A stretch of 64,000 nt of DNA from an uncultured Collinsella sp. (GTDB taxonomy: Bacteria > Actinomycetota > Coriobacteriia > Coriobacteriales > Coriobacteriaceae). Below, piece after piece: positions 4,972-51,010 of this stretch. Under the pieces are notes generated by a model. The model did not search any database, was not told where the DNA came from, and saw only the letters and a list, made by a program, of their open reading frames with translations. The DNA lies in NCBI GenBank assembly GCA_934646865.1, contig CAKUEU010000002.1, positions 7,434 through 71,433 on the forward strand. The letters are read 5' to 3'. The number at the start of each line of letters is the position of its first letter. The stretch's first letter is position 1. Made by a program: the position numbers and the translations under genes.

Positions 4972-5001
4972 AAAAGGGGCGCTGTGCATAGACAGCGCCC
5001 C
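4972..5001 (-). terminator. Riboswitch expression-platform terminator
   Basis: On the minus strand a hairpin with exact 10-bp arms (plus-strand 4976-4985 and 4992-5001) is followed by TTTTC. It lies between the TPP aptamer and the thiM start, which is where a transcription-termination expression platform belongs. Confidence 0.85.
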
Positions 5002-5011
5002 TGCAAAGGCG

Positions 5012-5104
5012 GCATGCTCCCTACGCCAGCATTAACTGACAGGTTCAAAGGATTGGGCCCATTGCCCTCTCAGCCTTGTGGTTTGCACCGCCGGCACTCC
5101 CGCA
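5012..5104 (-). promoter_or_regulatory. TPP (THI-box) riboswitch upstream of thiM
   Basis: Read on the minus strand, the segment contains the conserved THI-box blocks in order: a GGAGTGCC-type P1/P2 start, GGCTGAGAGGGC, CCTTTGAACCTG, CAGTTAATGCTGG and GCGTAGGGAGCATG. These are the TPP-binding core and the P4/P5 pyrophosphate helix. A T-tailed hairpin follows before thiM, so thiamine pyrophosphate binding should end transcription early. It governs thiM, the thiamine-binding protein gene and thiE. Confidence 0.95.
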
Positions 5105-5132
5105 TCGAATCTGTTGTCCCCTATACTAGCGC

Positions 5133-5234
5133 ACCTGCCAAAAAGGGTCAGGTTTATTTTGGCAGGTACCAACTGGGGCGATGCGTTTTCCCAGATAAAA
5201 CCTGCCAAAATAAACCTGTCCCTTTTTGGCAGGT
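5133..5234. repeat. Long inverted repeat, GGGACAGGTTTATTTTGGCAGG family (copy A)
   Basis: Two 35-base arms, 5133-5167 and 5200-5234, are reverse complements with one mismatch, separated by 32 bases. The right arm plus its leading CCCAGATAAAA recurs at 47033-47079. The element lies between the thiM riboswitch and the divergent HAD gene. It resembles a REP-type or miniature mobile palindrome; no transposase is nearby. Confidence 0.8.
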
Positions 5235-41703: not shown

Positions 41704-43608
41704 ATGGAACAGATTATCTTGAACATACTCGAGGCCCTGCGTCGCGGCGAGACCGTAGACGACAAGGCGCTCGTCAAACTGATACATGCCGAGGCGCGCC
41801 GCGAGGGTGCCGACAAACGTGACCTGGCCAAGCGCCGTCTGCTGCCGTTCTATCAGCGGGTGAAGCGCGAGGAGCCGACTCGCTGGACGGCATGGAATGT
41901 CGACGCTGAGCTAGAGCGTCAACTGCTGCAGGTGCTGCGCATGAAGCCGCGTCGCACGGCTTCGGGCGTGGCGACCATTACCGTCATCACCAAGCCGTGG
42001 CCGTGCTCGGGCGATTGTCTGTTTTGCCCCAACGATCTGCGCATGCCCAAGAGCTATCTGCACGCCGAGCCGGCGTGCGCCCGTGCGGAGCAAAATTGCT
42101 TCGATCCCTATTTGCAGGTGAGTGCTCGTCTGACGGCGCTTTCGCAGATGGGGCATGCGACCGATAAGATTGAGCTCATTGTGCTTGGCGGTACCTGGAG
42201 CGACTATCCGGAAGGCTATCAGACATGGTTTATGTCGGAGCTCTTCCGCGCACTCAATGACGATGCCGTGGCCGGCGTGGCGGCTAACCCCATGCTGGCG
42301 CGTCCGGGTATCAGCCGTGCCGAGGCGGGGCGTCTGCTCGATGACGCTCCCGCCGATGCCCTGCCGCCGGTGGTAGCGGAGCGACGCGAACGCTATCGGG
42401 CTGCCGGTATTGCGACCGATGAGGTTGAGCTTGCGAGCGGTGTTGCCGGCGAACAGGAGCGTGTTGATGCTGCCGTGGGCGGCTATAACCGCGCGGTGCG
42501 TCGGCTGTACGGCCCCGGCACGCCGTGGGGCGAGGTCGCCGAGTGGCAGACGGCCACGATGGAGGAACTTGAGCGTCAGCAGCGCATCAACGAGACGGCG
42601 AAGCATCGCGTGGTGGGGCTCGTTATCGAGACTCGTCCCGACGCCGTGACGCCACAGGCGCTCACGCTTATCCGTCGTTTGGGCTGCACCAAGATTCAGA
42701 TGGGCATCCAAAGCCTTGACCAGCACCTGCTCGATATCAACGAGCGTCGCATTTCGGTGGCTCAGATTGAGCGTGCGTTTTCGCTTGCAAGACTGTTTGG
42801 CTTTAAGATCCACGCGCATTTTATGCTCAACTTGCTGGGCGCCACACCCGAGGGGGACAAACGCGACTACGAGCGCTTTATGACCGAGGACGCCTTTATG
42901 CCCGACGAGGTCAAGGTCTACCCGTGCGCGCTCATTGAGGGTTCGCGCCTGGTAGGCTGCTACGAGCGTGGCGAGTGGCGCCCCTATACCGAGGAGGAGC
43001 TGCTCGACGTGCTGGCCGACGACATTGTGGTGACGCCGGCGTTTTGCCGTATCAGCCGTATGATTCGCGACTTTAGTTCCGACGACATTATGGTGGGCAA
43101 CAAGAAGCCCAACCTGCGTCAGCTCGTTGAGAACCGCTTGGCGGTTCGTGGGGAAGGCGCGGTGGTGCGCGAGATTCGCTATCGCGAGATCAGTACTGTG
43201 GGCGCCGACCTAGATAAGCTATCTCTTGACGAGGTTGCCTACGAGACGCCGGTGACAAGCGAGCGCTTTTTGCAGTGGGTGACGCCCGAAGGCAAGATCG
43301 CGGGCTTTTTGCGCCTGTCGCTGCCCGACCGCGCGTTTGTTGCTGCACATGAGGGCGAGCTGCCGACGGCGTCGGACGAAGCGATGATTCGCGAAGTGCA
43401 CGTGTATGGTATGGCGGCGCGCGTGGGCGATCAAGGTCAGGCGGCACAGCATCACGGACTGGGGCGCTTACTCGTGGAGCGTGCGTGCCAGATTGCACGG
43501 GATGCGGGCTATGCGCGCATCAATGTGATCAGTGCGATTGGTACGCGCGAGTACTACCGTCACCTGGGTTTTTACGACCATGGTCTCTATCTGCAAAAGG
43601 AGCTCTAG
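41704..43608 (+). CDS. elp3: Elp3-like tRNA U34 radical SAM/acetyltransferase
   Basis: The 634-residue protein is a bacterial Elp3. It has an N-terminal tRNA-binding helix region, the radical SAM cluster with Cys101, Cys105 and Cys108 in WPCSGDCLFCPND, the barrel motifs VIETRPD, QMGIQSLD and HFMLNLLG, a zinc/linker region, and a C-terminal GNAT domain (about 490-634) with VHVYGMAARVGDQGQAAQHHGLGRLLVE for acetyl-CoA. Elp3 adds a carboxymethyl-type group to U34 of tRNA. It starts at 41704 right after a terminator and is followed with no gap by a spermidine-synthase-fold gene. Confidence 0.93.
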   Translation: MEQIILNILEALRRGETVDDKALVKLIHAEARREGADKRDLAKRRLLPFYQRVKREEPTRWTAWNVDAELERQLLQVLRMKPRRTASGVATITVITKPWPCSGDCLFCPNDLRMPKSYLHAEPACARAEQNCFDPYLQVSARLTALSQMGHATDKIELIVLGGTWSDYPEGYQTWFMSELFRALNDDAVAGVAANPMLARPGISRAEAGRLLDDAPADALPPVVAERRERYRAAGIATDEVELASGVAGEQERVDAAVGGYNRAVRRLYGPGTPWGEVAEWQTATMEELERQQRINETAKHRVVGLVIETRPDAVTPQALTLIRRLGCTKIQMGIQSLDQHLLDINERRISVAQIERAFSLARLFGFKIHAHFMLNLLGATPEGDKRDYERFMTEDAFMPDEVKVYPCALIEGSRLVGCYERGEWRPYTEEELLDVLADDIVVTPAFCRISRMIRDFSSDDIMVGNKKPNLRQLVENRLAVRGEGAVVREIRYREISTVGADLDKLSLDEVAYETPVTSERFLQWVTPEGKIAGFLRLSLPDRAFVAAHEGELPTASDEAMIREVHVYGMAARVGDQGQAAQHHGLGRLLVERACQIARDAGYARINVISAIGTREYYRHLGFYDHGLYLQKEL

Positions 43609-44484
43609 ATGAACAAGCCAAGTGTTTCTGCCGGGGTTGTTGCCGGCGTTGCCCTGGGGGCTGCGGCGCTTGGTGCAGCCGCCGTCGCTGTTCGTGCTGC
43701 CTGTTTGCAGGTCGCGCGGACCCGCAATGGGTTGGCGCGTGTGAAACGCTTGCACGACGAGAGCGGTGACGAGGTCCGTGTGCTCGTGCAGGGCGGCGTC
43801 TACCAAAGCGCGAGCTATGTTGGCGATCGTTGGGCGGAGCCGGTCTTTGCGTACTATCGCGCATTTGACGATGTGTTTGAGGCCGAGGATGCAATGCGTG
43901 ATGCTTGCGGGCATGGTATCGACCGCATGCTCATGCTGGGCGGGGGCGGGTTTGCCTATCCCAAGTATGCGCTGATGTCGCATGAGGGCCTGCGCATGGA
44001 TGTCATTGAGTATGATGCCGAGATTACGCGTCTGGCGCGTCGCTGGTTCTACTTGGAGGAGCTGGAGCGCACGGTAGGCGATCGCTTACGGGTGATTGCC
44101 GCCGAGGCGCGCTCGTACCTGGGCGTGACAAGCGTTGGGCATCGTCGCTACGACGTGGTTGTGAGCGATTGCTTTGGCGGCGCCGAACCCGTGCGCGAGC
44201 TAGCGACCGTTGAGGCACTCCGTTTGGTGCGGGGTAGCCTGAACCCGGGCGGCATCTACGTGGCCAATATCGTGAGCGCAAACGAGGGGAGCGATGTGGC
44301 GTTCCTGCGCGATTGCGCCGCCACGGCGCTCGAGGTGTTCGACCGCGCTTGGGTAATTCCCTGCGGTGACACGGAGTTCGGCGGCGAGGAAAACTACCTG
44401 CTCATCGCCAGCGACGGTGACTACACCTTTGCCGAAGCCGTGCCCTTCGACACAGATTTTCTCGGCACCCCGCTCCACGACTAG
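43609..44484 (+). CDS. Spermidine-synthase-fold protein with N-terminal membrane anchor
   Basis: A 291-residue protein: one N-terminal hydrophobic helix (about 8-32, Ala/Gly/Val-rich), then a SpeE-like Rossmann methyltransferase fold with MLMLGGGGFAYPKYAL, VIEYDAEITRLARRWF, YDVVVSDCFGG and GGIYVANIVS. The Asp used in SpeE for aminopropyl transfer corresponds to VVVSDCFGG. It begins at the base after the elp3 stop, so it is in the same transcript. It may be a polyamine enzyme or an orphan methyltransferase; the membrane anchor is unusual for SpeE. Confidence 0.8.
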   Translation: MNKPSVSAGVVAGVALGAAALGAAAVAVRAACLQVARTRNGLARVKRLHDESGDEVRVLVQGGVYQSASYVGDRWAEPVFAYYRAFDDVFEAEDAMRDACGHGIDRMLMLGGGGFAYPKYALMSHEGLRMDVIEYDAEITRLARRWFYLEELERTVGDRLRVIAAEARSYLGVTSVGHRRYDVVVSDCFGGAEPVRELATVEALRLVRGSLNPGGIYVANIVSANEGSDVAFLRDCAATALEVFDRAWVIPCGDTEFGGEENYLLIASDGDYTFAEAVPFDTDFLGTPLHD

Positions 44485-44516: not shown

Positions 44517-46961
44517 TTAGGCGTGGTCGCGCCAGCTGAGGACGCGTTGCTTCATGCCTTGGATGTCAAGGACGCCTTCGGCAAAGCCTTTGCGAACGAG
44601 TTCCTCGGGAACGTACTCGTCGTAACGATCGAAGTAAGGTACCTCGCCGGGGTAGACGAGCTCGATAGGGTCGAAGTCCTTCTCGGCCTCGGCAGCGAGC
44701 ACCTCAAAGAACGTCTCCTCGTCGGCCTTCATCTTAAACTGCATAAAGTACGGGCGCGACGGATCGAGCCCGCGAAGACCCAGCTCTGCGGCGCATTTAA
44801 TCTTGAGCATGCGTTCGAGCGCCAGGAAGGCGTAGCTGCCCAGCCACGGGAAGAGCACCCAGGTATCACCGCCTAGGTTAACGAGTGGCTTAGTTCCCGC
44901 GCCCGAAATCTCGGCGGTATGGCGAGCCTGCACAAGGCGCGCTCGCGCGTTGCCCATAAGGTACGGATATGCCGCATGTTCGTTGAGCGCCTGGCGCATG
45001 CGCTCGAGCACATGCGTATTGATGTCTCCGGGACAGTCGCCAAAGTAGGCCGGCACACGGCCCTTGACCTGCGTGGCAAAGACGGTGTGGCGCTTCCAGT
45101 CCACTTCCTCGACAATCCAGCAATGGCCTGCAATGGCGATGCGCTCGCCGGGCGGTGGCGGATTAACGATTGTGCCCAACTCGGCCGATTCGCTGCGGAC
45201 GGTAAACTCCTCGTTCTCCTGGAACACGGCGTAGAACTTAAAGTTGTTGATGATGCGCTCGCCCGCGAGGCCCACGATGAGCCCGCCGCCCTCGGTGACC
45301 TGGATGTGGTCGATCTTAATGAGGTGGCGCAGCAGCACACGGTAGTCGTCGGCAGAGACACGGTGGAAATAGCTGAGCGTGAGCACGCGCTGGGCAAGCT
45401 CGGCCGGTGTGAGCTCGCCGGTGCTGGCGAGCGTCGACATGGTCTGGTGATAGAGCAAGCTGTAGGGGAGTCGATCGAGCTCGGGCGGCTCGACCCACTT
45501 TTCCTCGCGATAGAGTTGTACGAGTGCGATGCCCTGCAGAAGCTTCCAGGGTATCGTCTCGGGCATCATCGTGCGCGGCTCGGGCTCTTCCTCGCGCATG
45601 ACGAACCACATCTCGGGCGGAAGATCGCGGCGGCCTGTACGCCCCATGCGCTGTAAAAAGGAGCTGACGGTAAACGGCGCGTCAATCTGGAACGCGCGCT
45701 CCAGGCGGCCGATATCAATGCCGAGCTCCAACGTTGAGGTGGTGACGGTTGTCTGTGCCTGTTCCTCGTCGCGCATGAGCTCCTCGGCGGTCTCGCGTAG
45801 CGATGCCGAGAGGTTGCCATGGTGGATCAGGAAGCGGTCTGGCTCGTGCCGGTTCTCACAGTAGCTGCGCAGCATGGAGCACACGGCCTCTGCCTCCTCG
45901 CGCGAGTTGGCAAAGACCAGGCACTTGCGGCCGCGGGTATGTTCAAAGATATAGCCCATGCCGGGATCGGCGTTGTCGGGCGCGGTATCGGTGGGGTTGA
46001 GCAGCGCCTGCTCGGTCGCTCGCGGGATGTCGACTTCTCCCTCGGGGGCCGAGGAAGTGCGACGGTCCTTAGGGGCGGCCTTGCCTCGCGCTCGCTCGCG
46101 ACGTTGGCGGCGTTCCTCCTGTGTGAGTTGTCCGCTGTGGCGCATATCTTGGGTGCCGGCGGGCAGTGCCGCGGGTGCCGCTGCTTCAATGCGCTCGCAT
46201 GCGAGCACCTCAGCTTCCTGCGGACCTGCGCTCATAAATCCTCGTTGCTGCGCCTGGGGGGCCGAGTTGTAGAAGTGCTCCATGGAGATGCGCCACACGC
46301 GGCGCGGTTCCTCAAAGCGGGGGATGACGCAGTCGCGCCCCGTTCCCTGTGAGAGAAAAGTGCCCGTGCGCTCGGGGTCCCCGATGGTGGCCGAAAGGCC
46401 GATGCGGCGGGGCTGCACGCCCGCCATGCGCGAAAGGCGCTCGATAAGGCAGAGCGTCTGACCGCCACGGTCGCCGCGCATGAGCGAGTGGACCTCGTCG
46501 ATGACCACATAGCGCAGGTCGCAAAACATGCGCGGGATTGCCATGTGCTTATGGATCAGGAGCGCCTCGAGTGATTCGGGCGTAATTTGCAAGATACCAC
46601 TCGGCTTTTTGATGAGCTTTGCCTTGTGCGATTGCGAGACATCGCCGTGCCAGTGCCAGACAGGGATATCGGCCTCTTCGCACAGGTCGTTGAGACGGAC
46701 GAATTGGTCGTTGATGAGTGCCTTGAGCGGGCCGATGTAGAGGGCGCCCACGCTTGCGGGCGGGTTTTCCCAAAACTCGGTCAGGATGGGAAAGAAAGCC
46801 GCTTCGGTTTTGCCGGACGCCGTGGATGCCGTCAGGAGCACATTGTCTTGCGTGTTGAAGATGGCATCTGCCGCCGCAACCTGAATAGAGCGCAGGCTCT
46901 CCCAGTCGTGGGAGTAGATGAAGTCTTGGATGAATGGGGCATATCGGTCAAAGGCGTTCAT
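44517..46961 (-). CDS. Lhr-like DEAD/DEAH-box helicase (BrxHI-like) of the TerB module
   Basis: An 814-residue superfamily 2 helicase: Walker A TASTASGKT at 44-52, DEVHSL, LSATIGDP, FANSREEAEAVC, TSTLELGIDIG and QRMGRTGRR. A long C-terminal part includes an insertion with Arg-rich, disordered sequence (around residues 270-330). It is like Lhr/BrxHI helicases. It is the third gene of the operon after the TerB-N protein and the BrxD-like ATPase, on the same strand; a 47-bp repeat separates it from the ATPase gene. The ATG at 46961 follows AGGAGG. DNA unwinding as part of a defence or DNA-processing machine is inferred. Confidence 0.85.
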   Translation of the reverse strand: MNAFDRYAPFIQDFIYSHDWESLRSIQVAAADAIFNTQDNVLLTASTASGKTEAAFFPILTEFWENPPASVGALYIGPLKALINDQFVRLNDLCEEADIPVWHWHGDVSQSHKAKLIKKPSGILQITPESLEALLIHKHMAIPRMFCDLRYVVIDEVHSLMRGDRGGQTLCLIERLSRMAGVQPRRIGLSATIGDPERTGTFLSQGTGRDCVIPRFEEPRRVWRISMEHFYNSAPQAQQRGFMSAGPQEAEVLACERIEAAAPAALPAGTQDMRHSGQLTQEERRQRRERARGKAAPKDRRTSSAPEGEVDIPRATEQALLNPTDTAPDNADPGMGYIFEHTRGRKCLVFANSREEAEAVCSMLRSYCENRHEPDRFLIHHGNLSASLRETAEELMRDEEQAQTTVTTSTLELGIDIGRLERAFQIDAPFTVSSFLQRMGRTGRRDLPPEMWFVMREEEPEPRTMMPETIPWKLLQGIALVQLYREEKWVEPPELDRLPYSLLYHQTMSTLASTGELTPAELAQRVLTLSYFHRVSADDYRVLLRHLIKIDHIQVTEGGGLIVGLAGERIINNFKFYAVFQENEEFTVRSESAELGTIVNPPPPGERIAIAGHCWIVEEVDWKRHTVFATQVKGRVPAYFGDCPGDINTHVLERMRQALNEHAAYPYLMGNARARLVQARHTAEISGAGTKPLVNLGGDTWVLFPWLGSYAFLALERMLKIKCAAELGLRGLDPSRPYFMQFKMKADEETFFEVLAAEAEKDFDPIELVYPGEVPYFDRYDEYVPEELVRKGFAEGVLDIQGMKQRVLSWRDHA

Positions 46962-47032
46962 GGGGCCTCCTCTCAACAACGGGTTATCAAACGCAGCGGG
47001 CAACAGGTCGTCGAATTTCAACATCGGCGTTT

Positions 47033-47079
47033 ACCCAGATAAAACCTGTCAAAATAAACCTGTCCCTTTTTGGCAGGTT
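47033..47079. repeat. GGGACAGGTTTATTTTGGCAGG family, copy B
   Basis: It repeats CCCAGATAAAACCTG(T/C)CAAAATAAACCTG and TCCCTTTTTGGCAGGT from 5189-5234 with one or two changes. It lies in the gap between the ATPase and helicase genes and its end overlaps the ATPase stop codon. Only one arm plus the flank is present, forming a small CCTG..CAGG hairpin. Confidence 0.8.
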
Positions 47080-48382
47080 AGATGGTGAATTCGGCGAAGT
47101 TGCGGTTGTCGCCTGCGGTGCCGGTGTCGTTTGTTGCGGCTGTCGGTGCCAGCGCATCGCCGCCGACGCTTTGCAGTAGCTCGGCCACGTCGGCGTCGGG
47201 GTTTTGACACAGAATGTCGAGTAGCTCGATAAAGTCGCGGATGACCTCACGGGGCGTCAGGTGCGTGTCGGCTCCCACGCGGCCAAACTCAATCTTGAGG
47301 AAGTCCACCAAGTCGCTCTCGGTAAGCGTAGGGGTCCAGCCAAAGTAGCCGGCATGGATCTGCATGAGCTTTTCGATCAGCACCAGCAGCTCCTCATAGG
47401 TGAGCGGCTGCAGGCGGATGATGGGCGCGAGCATGTCTTTGAGGTCCTCGCGCGCAAAACGGCCCTGGGCGAGACGGCTGCGCAGAGCCTCGTAGGAAAA
47501 GACGCCGCGGCGTCGGTCCTCGATAGAGGTTGGAGTGCCGCCCATAATCATGCCCAGGTACTGTGCCTTGCCTTGCAGCGTGTCGTTGTACATCGTTAGG
47601 ATCTTCTCGTAGTTGTACTGGCGCGTGATGGCGTTGGGAATCTTGTACAGGTTTACAAGTTCGTCGATGAGCACCAGCATGCCCTTGTAGCCGCTGCAGA
47701 CCAAAAAGCGTGCAATGAGCTTGACGTAGTCGTACCAGTCGTCGTCGCTGATGATGGTCGAGGAGCCTAGCTCGGCGCGCGCCTCGCTCTTGGTGCGATA
47801 CTCGCCGCGAATCCATTTGGTTACGCGGCTCATGGCCTCCTCGTCGCCCTCTGCGACGGCCGTGCGGTAACGGCGGAGCATGCGGGTGAAGTCAAAGCCG
47901 TGAACCATTTCTTCGAGCGGGGCAAGCTGGGCATTGATGGCCGACTCGTCGGCGTCGGCACACGAGGCGACCCAGCGATCCAGGATAAGATTGAGCGCGC
48001 CGCCCTCGGGGCGCGTTTTGGTCGATATGTTGCGGATAAGCTCGCGATAGGTGGCCAGACCTTGGCCCTGGCCACCCTGCAGGCGGCGCTCAGGGGATAG
48101 GTCGGCATCGGCGACGACGAAGCCCTCACCCATGGCGTGTGTGCGGATGGTTTGGAGCAAAAAGCTCTTGCCGGCGCCGTAGCGACCGACCAAAAAGCGG
48201 AAGCTCGCGCCGCCATCGGCGATAAGGCTGAGGTCGGTGAGCAGGGCACGAATCTCGACCTCGCGCCCCACGGTAATGTAGGGAAGGCCGATGCGCGGGA
48301 CGACGCCGCCCTTGAGCGAGTTGAGAATGACGGCGGCGACGCGCTTGGGCACGCGGGGCGCTGCGGATGCGGTATCACTCAT
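47078..48382 (-). CDS. BrxD-like (DUF2791) P-loop ATPase of the TerB module
   Basis: A 434-residue P-loop ATPase of the DUF2791 family, the same family as BrxD of BREX. Walker A is GRYGAGKS at 66-73, preceded by PRIGLPYITVGREVEI that is typical of the family; a Walker B-like MLVLIDELVNLYK lies near 240, sensor-type MGGTPTSIEDRRRG near 285. It overlaps the TerB-N gene by eight bases and is followed by the helicase gene. In BREX type 2, BrxD works with an Lhr-like helicase BrxHI, which is the pair seen here without the other BREX genes. Confidence 0.85.
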   Translation of the reverse strand: MSDTASAAPRVPKRVAAVILNSLKGGVVPRIGLPYITVGREVEIRALLTDLSLIADGGASFRFLVGRYGAGKSFLLQTIRTHAMGEGFVVADADLSPERRLQGGQGQGLATYRELIRNISTKTRPEGGALNLILDRWVASCADADESAINAQLAPLEEMVHGFDFTRMLRRYRTAVAEGDEEAMSRVTKWIRGEYRTKSEARAELGSSTIISDDDWYDYVKLIARFLVCSGYKGMLVLIDELVNLYKIPNAITRQYNYEKILTMYNDTLQGKAQYLGMIMGGTPTSIEDRRRGVFSYEALRSRLAQGRFAREDLKDMLAPIIRLQPLTYEELLVLIEKLMQIHAGYFGWTPTLTESDLVDFLKIEFGRVGADTHLTPREVIRDFIELLDILCQNPDADVAELLQSVGGDALAPTAATNDTGTAGDNRNFAEFTI

Positions 48383-50135
48383 GGTCTAGGTATCCTCTCA
48401 CGTCTGCTTCGTAGTCCTCGATAATCTGCGGCCCTGCCGCGCCAAATTCAATAACAGTGTCGCCCACCAGGTCAAAGAGGGTCTCGTTGATGCTGTCGAC
48501 GAGCATATCTTCGCTCTGCTCCGACTTCTCCACCGCCGATGCCGCCTGCGCCGCGTTTTGCTCGAGCAGCGCACGAAGATAATCTTCTGCGGCGGGGGCG
48601 AGTGCGGACGTGATGTCGGCGGGCATGGCCGTCGCGGGTGTGGGTGCTGGTGCGAGGAGCGGGGCTACGACGCCAAATTGCTCGGTGGAGATGGTTGGCT
48701 CGTCATCCTCGTCCTGTTCCATGGGCGCCGCGACCGGCTCGACAATCGCCTCGGTCATGGGCCTGGCTTCTGGCTTCCCAGGGCCTGCCGCCTCGGCATC
48801 CTCAAGCGCGTCGTCCTCGCGTTCCTCGTCGATCAAAAGCGCCTCGCGCGTCTGTGCAGCGGCGCTTCGGATGTGTCCCAGCTGGCTCAGGTCGATATCG
48901 ATCTTGACGGGCTGGTGCGCGGCATCCCACGAAAGCCATGCCACGATCTCATCGTCGATGATCTTGGCCAGATATTTGGGGACCTTTTCTTCCTTAAGGG
49001 GATGGGCGGGATCTAGCGCCAGGCGCAAGCGCTGATCGCAGGCGCGCATCATCTCGCCGAGCTTGCTGCTCTTTTGCCTGCTGCCGTGGATGCGCATGCA
49101 CTCCCAAAAGCCGTTTTGGCAACGGTAGATATGGATGGGGTCCAAGCGATATTCGCAGTCCTCGTGGCGCTCGGGCGCAAAGAACACGGCCGAGGCAAAC
49201 ATGGTGTAGGGCATGGCCGTCTCCTCCCCAAACAAGCTCGCCACGATGCCGGTCTTTCGATGCGTGTCATAGTAGCGCGCCATGCGGACATATACGGCGC
49301 ATGCCACGTGGCGAAGGTCGCGATGGTGGGAACGGTCGAGCCGTGAGTTATTCAGGTTGTACGTGGAGAGCGCATTGATGGCGGCCATGAGTCGCTCCTC
49401 GCGAGCCTCATCGGGTGGAAGGGGGAGCGTGGGCTCGGAGGCTTTTCGACGCTTGGGAGCTTGGGCCGACGGCGCTGACGCAGGTACAAGGTCTCGCGCT
49501 GCACGGCGCAGCTCGATGAGGGCGTTGTCGAATGCAACGGTTTTAGAGTCGTGAAGCAGCTTGGGATCGAGCCCGTGGAACACGGCGTAGTCCTGCAGCC
49601 ATACGCGTGCGAACCGGTCGATACCGGGCTCAAAGGCGCGATAGGCATCCCAAAAGGCCTTGATCTTGTCAAAGCCATCGAGCGGGTCGTCGACGCCAAT
49701 GCCGCAGATCAATTCGTAAAGATACAGAAAAGCAAACGAGGTCGATGTCTCCTCGATGTTGCCGCGACGCACTTGGGCGCGCCAGGTAAAGTAGCCACGC
49801 AGCTGCCGGTCACTCATGGCGTTGTAGGTAGGAAAGTACGACTTAAAGGTGCCGTTGTAGGGGCAATCGTCCTCGAAGTCGGCCATCAGCAGGCCCTGAC
49901 GGTAAAAGAGCTCCGCCTCCGATAGCCAACGCCCCGCGCCGCCCTTGGGATCATCCTGCCAGCGCGATATCTCGCGCATCTTGCGGTACTGGTCGGGGAG
50001 GAAGTTCTGCATCTGACGGCCGGTCTTGAGAATCGGCTCGTCAGCATAGATTTTGTTTGAGAAACGGGCGGACTGATGGGTCCGGGCCTCGGCCATAATG
50101 CGCTCGATGAGCATCTTGACGTCCTGGTCGGCCAC
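48375..50135 (-). CDS. TerB-N / TerB-C domain protein
   Basis: A 586-residue protein with an N-terminal TerB-N domain (about 55-200; SYFPTYNAMSDRQLRGYFTW then SFAFLYLYELICGIGVDDP), a middle conserved region with RMARYYDTHRKTG, an acidic disordered linker (about 450-530) and a TerB-C-like end (DTVIEFGAAGPQIIEDYEAD). TerB-type domains occur in tellurite/stress and DNA-processing systems and are thought to bind metal. It starts at a GTG with a GGAGAGGAGAGGG SD. It is the first gene of the three-gene operon. The function is inferred from the module, not known. Confidence 0.85.
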   Translation of the reverse strand: MADQDVKMLIERIMAEARTHQSARFSNKIYADEPILKTGRQMQNFLPDQYRKMREISRWQDDPKGGAGRWLSEAELFYRQGLLMADFEDDCPYNGTFKSYFPTYNAMSDRQLRGYFTWRAQVRRGNIEETSTSFAFLYLYELICGIGVDDPLDGFDKIKAFWDAYRAFEPGIDRFARVWLQDYAVFHGLDPKLLHDSKTVAFDNALIELRRAARDLVPASAPSAQAPKRRKASEPTLPLPPDEAREERLMAAINALSTYNLNNSRLDRSHHRDLRHVACAVYVRMARYYDTHRKTGIVASLFGEETAMPYTMFASAVFFAPERHEDCEYRLDPIHIYRCQNGFWECMRIHGSRQKSSKLGEMMRACDQRLRLALDPAHPLKEEKVPKYLAKIIDDEIVAWLSWDAAHQPVKIDIDLSQLGHIRSAAAQTREALLIDEEREDDALEDAEAAGPGKPEARPMTEAIVEPVAAPMEQDEDDEPTISTEQFGVVAPLLAPAPTPATAMPADITSALAPAAEDYLRALLEQNAAQAASAVEKSEQSEDMLVDSINETLFDLVGDTVIEFGAAGPQIIEDYEADVRGYLDHE

Positions 50136-50224
50136 CGCCCTCTCCTCTCCCTATACGGTGTCGGTGACCTCATATCATAGCACAGCATCAAACAGATGTT
50201 CGAGATGCCGCTATGTAGATAGAC

Positions 50225-50941
50225 TTAGAACAGGAGGGCGTAGATGACGGCTATGACGACGGCGGGGAGCATGTTGGCCGTGCGGAAGGTCTGAGGTCGG
50301 ATAAGGTTGACGCCGACGCAGAAGATGAGCATGGACCCCACGAGTGAGAGGCTGTCGAGGGCTGCGGTGGTCATAATGGGGGAGAGCGCGCCGGCAAACA
50401 GCGTGATCGTTCCCTGGAACACGGCAACGGGCAGGGCCGAGAAGATACAGCCGCGTCCGAGCGAGGCTGTCATGGTGCAGACGATGATGCAGTCCAGTGC
50501 ACCCTTCAGGGCGAGCGTAGACCAATCGCCGAGCAGACCGTCCTGAATCGATCCCACGATGGCCATCGCGCCGATGCACACGGTGAGCGATGCCGAGACA
50601 AAGGCGTTGGTGAACTCGTTGTCTCCCTCGCTCCCGGTTTTGCGTTTGAGCCATTCGCCGAGGTTTTCGATGGCGGCCTCCAGGTTGATGGCCTCGCCGA
50701 TAAGCGAGCCGAGCGCGAATGAGACGATCAACATGGTGGTGCCGGTGGTCGACAGGACGCCGCCGTCGATGACGAGCATCTTTTGCATGGTGCCGCCCAA
50801 GCCGATAAACAGGACGCACAGCCCCGATGCTTTCATGAGCGTGTCTTGGATACGCGGTGTGATAAAGCGACCGCCCGCTAATCCCAAAAGACCGCCCGCA
50901 ATCAAAAGCACAACGTTGATGATTGTTCCCAAGCCCGGCAT
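50225..50941 (-). CDS. DUF554 membrane protein (YdfK-like)
   Basis: A 238-residue membrane protein of the DUF554 family, with about seven hydrophobic helices. Typical features: GTIINVVLLIAGGLLGLAGG at the start, GGTMQ, ALGSLIGEAINLEAAIENLGEWLKRK, and ASLTVCIGAMAIVGSIQDGLLGD. Function unknown; a transporter is likely. I use the ATG at 50941 after GGAGGG; an upstream in-frame ATG at 51010 adds a Cys/His-containing stretch unlike the family. A palindrome (51011-51036) lies upstream. Confidence 0.85.
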   Translation of the reverse strand: MPGLGTIINVVLLIAGGLLGLAGGRFITPRIQDTLMKASGLCVLFIGLGGTMQKMLVIDGGVLSTTGTTMLIVSFALGSLIGEAINLEAAIENLGEWLKRKTGSEGDNEFTNAFVSASLTVCIGAMAIVGSIQDGLLGDWSTLALKGALDCIIVCTMTASLGRGCIFSALPVAVFQGTITLFAGALSPIMTTAALDSLSLVGSMLIFCVGVNLIRPQTFRTANMLPAVVIAVIYALLF

Positions 50942-51010
50942 GAGCCCTCCCGTATTGATGCCAACGTGGCAATCGTAGCAGAACGGAATGCGAGGCACAT
51001 CGCGACTCAT

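Follow-up and report, generated by a model that had tools for sequence, protein, structure and literature searches.

The 64,000-nucleotide stretch of uncultured Collinsella sp. DNA analysed here (hereafter the window; contig CAKUEU010000002.1) carries three genes, sngA, sngB and sngC, which together constitute Shango, a known anti-phage system in which, according to the available text of Johnson et al. 2023, a TerB-like protein is combined with an ATPase and a DEAD/DEAH helicase (SngABC; PMC10250203). The system itself is already known; what is unexpected is its distribution, that is, its fixation in the Coriobacteriaceae. Near-universal presence in the family, a fixed neighbour and a low ratio of nonsynonymous to synonymous substitution rates (dN/dS) give Shango the appearance of a core locus that these bacteria pass on vertically. 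We consider it reasonably probable that Shango has become a permanent part of the Coriobacteriaceae chromosome and is inherited vertically as standing anti-phage immunity. More specifically, we infer that an ancestor of the family acquired the system and that its function is still immunity, exerted by the mechanism proposed below.

The three genes are read from the minus strand in the order sngA (48375..50135; 586 amino acids, GTG start), sngB (47078..48382; 434 amino acids) and sngC (44517..47024; 835 amino acids). As a first-pass annotation of this DNA had reported, sngA and sngB overlap by 8 bases (48375-48382); sngB and sngC are spaced by 53 bases. The domains named in that annotation also hold in profile searches. 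SngA contains TerB_N at residues 65-209 (114 bits, cut-off 25) and TerB_C at residues 407-580 (55.8 bits, cut-off 26.3), SngB is an AAA+ ATPase of the BrxC/BrxD Pfam family (BrxC_BrxD, PF10923, 500 bits, cut-off 22.2), and SngC is an Lhr/BrxHI-like superfamily 2 (SF2) helicase (DEAD 93.6 bits, Helicase_C 65.6 bits), all scores far beyond chance. Likewise, no nuclease domain was detected in SngA, SngB or SngC by Pfam, NCBI and PADLOC profile scans. The catalytic motifs of both the ATPase and the helicase are intact: the Walker A motif of SngB, GRYGAGKS at residues 66-73 (48164..48187, minus strand), has G66, G69, G71 and K72 invariant in 33/33 aligned SngB proteins, and the DEVH box of SngC at residues 176-179 (46488..46499, minus strand) is invariant in 40/40 aligned SngC proteins and accompanied by ASGKT (69), SAT (211) and QRMGRTGR (458). 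Comparison with 11 C. aerofaciens-type loci (L001-L010, L058) shows all three open reading frames (ORFs) open in each. The ten best loci, mostly named C. aerofaciens, have an SngB with 96-97% identity to the window protein, and the window is C. aerofaciens-like.

The PADLOC models of SngA, SngB and SngC (PDLC03958, PDLC03959 and PDLC03960) score 261.5, 562.9 and 916.4 bits on the trio. Plasmid trios with the same gene order score 350, 618 and 936 bits (Klebsiella) and 360, 682 and 820 bits (Paenibacillus) with the same models. The first-pass annotation had proposed a candidate defence module assembled from parts like those of bacteriophage exclusion (BREX) systems; it was right that this is a defence family with parts related to BREX type 2, but the module is not an unnamed one. 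Several of these features would also fit a BREX type 2 module that had decayed or was minimal: SngB belongs to the same Pfam family as BrxC and BrxD, SngC resembles BrxHI, its next-best PADLOC relative (408.5 bits), and SngC, BrxHI, DruE and DpdJ are placed in a potentially distinct helicase clade in the available text of PMC12278908. We nevertheless regard this origin as highly improbable. SngB reaches 134 bits with the PADLOC BrxD model and 135 bits with the BrxD equivalog NF033438, thus missing the cut-off of 350 bits, and the SngB and SngC models score far above BrxD and BrxHI. SngA matches no BREX model in PADLOC, no match to PglZ, PglX or PglW was found among the flanking proteins (10 scanned with Pfam and 10 with PADLOC), and PglZ occurs in 12/42 genomes of the genus, as opposed to 42/42 for SngA and SngC. 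The trio is Shango, and not a new BREX-derived module.

Anti-phage activity has been demonstrated for homologues, and the window trio may share it. In P. aeruginosa, the PA14 Shango trio is described as reducing plating by a modest 10-100-fold for many but not all phages tested, and as giving strong protection in Pseudomonas liquid culture (PMC10250203, available text). The accessible parts of two accounts of Shango (PMC13356809, PMC10924106) make no link to Coriobacteriia, nor does any title among the 20 listed of 70 papers. Judged from the listing, Shango and Collinsella appear together only in papers on colorectal cancer, gut metabolites or bile acid. Millman et al. 2022, which Johnson et al. 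2023 cites, reportedly also deals with Shango.

To establish how widely Shango is kept, we tallied genomes whose completeness is unstated, with genus and family as grouped by the search tool. All three genes are found in 41 of 43 Collinsella-genus genomes, the remaining two (G031 and G037) being without SngB only; by profile search, the counts are 41/43 for SngB, 42/42 for SngA and 42/42 for SngC. Both SngB-negative genomes are broken at contig ends: in G031 the SngA match ends 9 bases short of the contig end, and in G037 SngA and SngC are both cut. Since the one genome in which SngA and SngC were not searched (G038) shows all three genes, a clear absence of Shango is seen in none of the 43. 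At the family level, SngB is detected at E <= 1e-50 in 62 of 65 genomes, G463 being the only negative besides G031 and G037. Control genes in the same genus are far from universal, namely Cas1 (12/42), PglZ (12/42, as above) and the type I restriction domain HSDR_N (18/42). Shango is thus present in essentially all members of the genus and, as judged by SngB, of the family, but not of the class, where SngB is found in 141 of 296 genomes at E <= 1e-3, 136 of these being strong matches. In the family of a Ruminococcus genome (Bacillota), SngB is present in 16 of 148 genomes at E <= 1e-50.

The position of the locus is also conserved. Downstream of sngC and convergent with it lies a spermidine-synthase-like gene (43609..44484, plus strand; NF037959, 70.6 bits, cut-off 40; no Pfam match), followed by a gene for an Elp3-type tRNA-modifying radical SAM/GNAT enzyme (41704..43608, plus strand; TIGR01211, 406.5 bits, cut-off 350). 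In 41 of the 43 genus genomes, the spermidine-synthase-like gene and sngC lie no more than about 5 kb apart, G032 and G040 being the exceptions, the latter on a contig of only 9 kb; the Elp3-type gene then follows in 40 of the 41, the contig of G033 ending first. Elsewhere in the family, L011, L017, L026, L030 and L037 keep the spermidine-synthase-like neighbour. Beyond it, this gene sits near sngA in most of the Atopobiaceae loci (within L031-L048) whose left flank is complete, and both conserved genes are retained beyond sngC at a locus of Slackia (L062, identical in place to L171); among 16 further class-level loci (L172-L187, two from one genome), the spermidine-synthase-like gene is present in L176 only. 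On the other side of the trio, a DUF554 protein gene (50225..51010, minus strand; PF04474) lies upstream of sngA.

An ordinary accessory, mobile defence operon, present here by happenstance, would account for the 691 plasmid records that carry SngB homologues, 542 of them typed conjugative, and for the horizontal transfer visible outside the family in the trees described below. For the Coriobacteriaceae copy it is a very unlikely description, which the fixed distribution and locus already contradict: all 43 genus genomes carry sng genes, most of them beside the same gene, and no mobile-element or defence gene was recognised among the flanking proteins (10 by Pfam, 10 by PADLOC). No SngB match was found among 50,697 phage records. 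The suggestion that the trio might cluster with known defence genes was not borne out at the window locus, where PADLOC finds no defence system, and hence no defence island, among 10 neighbours; one of these gave generic helicase matches, one helix-turn-helix matches and one a weak MADS match (25 bits). According to a community survey (PMC10924106), it is preferentially outside defence islands that restriction-modification systems co-localise with Shango, a result that at least does not bind Shango to islands.

We next turn to selection, measured across 11 local genes as the median dN/dS of the window against C. aerofaciens-type loci, of which 11 were used for every gene except the helix-turn-helix gene (9 loci). 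The lowest values belong to sngB and sngC (0.034 each), with sngA at 0.092. Among the neighbours, the Elp3-type gene has 0.052, DUF554 0.054, the flavin adenine dinucleotide (FAD) oxidase and the spermidine-synthase-like gene 0.067-0.068, a methyltransferase 0.125 and three faster genes 0.16-0.21. The dS of the trio falls inside the range of its neighbours, a further point against a mobile operon. This result shows strong purifying selection on the sng genes in the C. aerofaciens group.

Trees of SngB plus SngC and of the separately located ligase LigA were built by a quick method without a mixture model from the 39 of 47 genomes that had all proteins, 8 being dropped. Both hold a Coriobacteriaceae clade of 16 rows, to which LigA adds L039 and L055, and the same 9-row Atopobiaceae clade.

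Several observations weigh against permanent, vertically inherited immunity. Six rows, mostly ruminant (L049, L063, L066, L068, L073 and L074), join the Atopobiaceae in the LigA tree and fall outside them in the Sng tree, Bacillota rows are much nearer in the Sng tree than they are for LigA, and the two trees differ in places in how the Coriobacteriaceae clade branches internally. Transfer between lineages therefore took place at least outside the core family. Nor do all family members keep the locus: L012, L022, L039 and L055 are without the conserved neighbour in the fetched DNA. The window SngA scores below those of the two plasmid trios (262 vs 350-360 bits) and evolves fastest of the trio, so its specificity may differ. 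Phage data for any Coriobacteriaceae Shango were not found in the literature searched, and the proposed mechanism is drawn from folds and homology, the winged-helix match of SngA being weak. Finally, universal, single-copy and slowly evolving genes are unusual for a defence system and would also fit a housekeeping role.

Such a role is the most substantial alternative. Shango of the Coriobacteriaceae could have been domesticated for housekeeping genome maintenance, with an ATPase-loaded Lhr-like helicase clearing stalled forks, R-loops or damaged host DNA and phage defence being secondary or lost; we hold this to be possible, although on the doubtful side. It would agree with a near-universal, single-copy system that has a single locus in most genomes of the genus, with genes that persist in G020 and G021 although sngC has lost its linkage to sngAB there (see below), with dN/dS values of sngB and sngC under that of Elp3, and with the absence of any defence system among the 10 scanned neighbours. 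The predicted structure of SngC points the same way: its best PDB match is M. smegmatis Lhr (5v9x, E 1.3e-18, template modelling score 0.52), followed by MrfA, which supports the Lhr-like label for a model of moderate quality only (mean predicted local distance difference test score 71). Lhr and MrfA are repair helicases. In its strongest form, to which we would give marginally less credence, an anti-phage system has turned into a core genome-maintenance machine on which the whole family depends, SngABC being an ATPase-loaded Lhr-type translocase with a TerB/winged-helix recognition subunit. However, no essentiality, repair or housekeeping phenotype of Shango was found in the literature searched, about half of the class is without strong Shango matches and the system is thus not needed by all relatives, and homologues elsewhere are phage-active and carried on plasmids. 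SOS control was rejected as well, a LexA-like pattern (one mismatch allowed) being found 10 times in the window, fewer than the 22.5 expected by chance. The first-pass annotation had named universal conservation in Coriobacteriia at one locus, with a housekeeping phenotype, as the outcome that would speak against a defence module; the conservation is effectively universal in the genus, with a single locus for sngC in 41/43, and for SngB near-universal in the family, but in the class it stops at 136/296 strong SngB matches, and the phenotype did not emerge from the papers searched.

For standing immunity, the most likely mechanism is that SngB assists the loading of SngC on DNA recognised by SngA, which is then blocked without cutting. 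SngB, as an AAA+ ATPase of the helicase-loader type, would load or power SngC, an Lhr-type SF2 DNA translocase that would be placed on foreign or abnormal DNA. Recognition, or an adaptor function, would fall to SngA, whose helical TerB part would act together with a winged helix at the C-terminus that probably binds DNA, and the complex would block replication or packaging of the target DNA by translocation. A block without cutting is suggested because no nuclease was detected in the trio. Loading of BrxHI by BrxD has been proposed (PMC12839542, available text), and no account of how Shango works was found in our literature search, as far as the texts available extend.

The predicted SngA model is mostly helical and confident outside linkers, with a winged-helix-like C-terminal domain (residues ~507-586). 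Its structural matches are weak: Foldseek returned nothing at E <= 0.001, which speaks neither for nor against a catalytic fold, and the SngA profile had no match to PDB sequences up to E 1. Searching SngB against PDB sequences gave five matches, none judged meaningful; the best, 7rdr, spans 29 residues of a repeat protein. In the SngC model, residues ~256-350 form an insert between the lobes, roughly 80-100 residues long and predicted with low confidence, and the Klebsiella and Paenibacillus SngC proteins are ~100 residues shorter overall than that of the window.

The three genes are retained in the genome without the need for one tight operon, because sngB and sngC can be separated or unlinked with all genes still present. 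Their matches lie 1.7-9.7 kb apart in 13 of the 43 genus genomes. In G020 and G021, sngAB and sngC are on separate long contigs with large margins, sngAB being the part that left the conserved locus; in G031, sngA is on another contig than sngC, which has more than 20 kb of DNA on each side before its own contig ends. The contig ends of G033 and G040 are too near for this linkage to be judged. Among the fetched relatives, sngB and sngC are separated by anything between no gap and 7 kb, and the sngA-sngB gap of Atopobiaceae reaches 4.7 kb.

Defence cargo between the sng genes, considered at first alongside a missing nuclease, is not supported by Pfam and PADLOC scans of ORFs picked from these gaps. 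We selected 20 from a longer list, in this and related genera; the picks were greedy in GC-rich DNA, so that some of the 11 with no Pfam match may be spurious. The 9 above cut-off, mostly ordinary metabolic or transport genes, encode a substrate-binding protein, an ATP-binding cassette (ABC) transporter, an Fe-hydrogenase, a major facilitator superfamily transporter, DUF5104, a 5'-nucleotidase, PIN_3, an M13 peptidase and a glutamate synthase. PADLOC, run on 10 of the 20, matched only the ABC transporter, whose hits (MADS, AriA and a Toprim-ATPase model) are generic for ATPases.

Three of the proteins next to sng genes recur or stand out. A PIN_3-domain gene lies between sngB and sngC in four Atopobiaceae loci (L035:14182-14676, L036:12263-12757, L043:12238-12732 and L046:12247-12741), by Pfam match for the L035 copy and by clustering for the others; in three of the four it has a neighbour of ~130-140 amino acids, with which it could form a toxin-antitoxin pair. 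A family of 548-630 amino acids (cluster c1) is found downstream of sngB in several Collinsella species (L014, L016, L019, L020, L021, L024 and L025); the single member scanned (L016) matches nothing in Pfam or PADLOC. Next after the Shango operon of Paenibacillus comes a hypothetical protein of 461 amino acids (L147:8218-9603), which has no PADLOC match.

Upstream of sngA, a possible extended -10 element (TGC-TATGAT; 50174..50182, minus strand) was picked by eye, in a block identical in 12/12 C. aerofaciens-type sequences; a promoter and terminator scan yielded no more than shuffled sequences and did not report it. Between sngB and sngC lies the core of a dispersed intergenic repeat, GGGACAGGTTTATTTT (47051..47066, minus strand), with further copies at 5145-5160 (plus strand, one mismatch) and 5207-5222 (minus strand), that is, 3 matches in the window where 0.01 would be expected if up to two mismatches are allowed. 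Besides the window, 10/11 C. aerofaciens-type loci hold the repeat between sngB and sngC, and an exact copy is present in 26 of 187 fetched loci, some of which overlap. The RNA fold of this gap is not convincing (z -2.0). Near the copies at 5145-5222, a thiamine pyrophosphate riboswitch is matched at 5001-5111 (minus strand; 54.5 bits, gathering score 54.3).

Defence systems are usually gained and lost quickly, and a Shango that is nearly family-wide, has a fixed locus in most of the main genus and is under stronger purifying selection than its neighbours therefore amounts to a natural experiment. Either it pays to retain some immunity permanently, or Shango serves the host cell. Fixation in a whole family is the finding worth following, and it is consistent with both readings, permanent immunity, which we judge fairly probable, and domestication for genome maintenance, which we rate as a tentative possibility. 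Should the sng genes be a core genome-maintenance machine, the Shango mechanism would gain a cellular DNA substrate and the direction of exchange between defence and repair genes would be shown.

Lhr of M. smegmatis is the nearest solved fold to SngC. It works without SngA or SngB, whereas SngC is conserved alongside both. Hachiman HamAB and Druantia type III DruHE are also helicase-centred anti-phage systems (PMC12278908, PMC13316683), and DruE is put with SngC in the potential helicase clade mentioned above; the available texts of these accounts mention no TerB or BrxD-like part, HamA is a nuclease, and HamA and DruH are unmatched in the trio (for SngC, among the best 25 of 58 families). BREX type 2 likewise pairs an ATPase of the same Pfam family with an SF2 helicase that has an Lhr-like C-terminal domain, BrxD-BrxHI, from which the loader idea may carry over to SngB-SngC (PMC12839542, available text); it differs in the BrxD cut-off that SngB misses, in the Pgl proteins lacking among the scanned neighbours and in having no counterpart model for SngA. 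Closest of all is Shango itself, with the same three proteins in the same order and high scores for all three PADLOC models. Elsewhere it resides in a defence hotspot or on a plasmid, whereas the Coriobacteriaceae copy is fixed in the family and occupies one chromosomal locus in most of one genus, with its sngB-sngC linkage loosened in many species, its SngA diverged and, in the window, the low-confidence insert between the helicase lobes of SngC.

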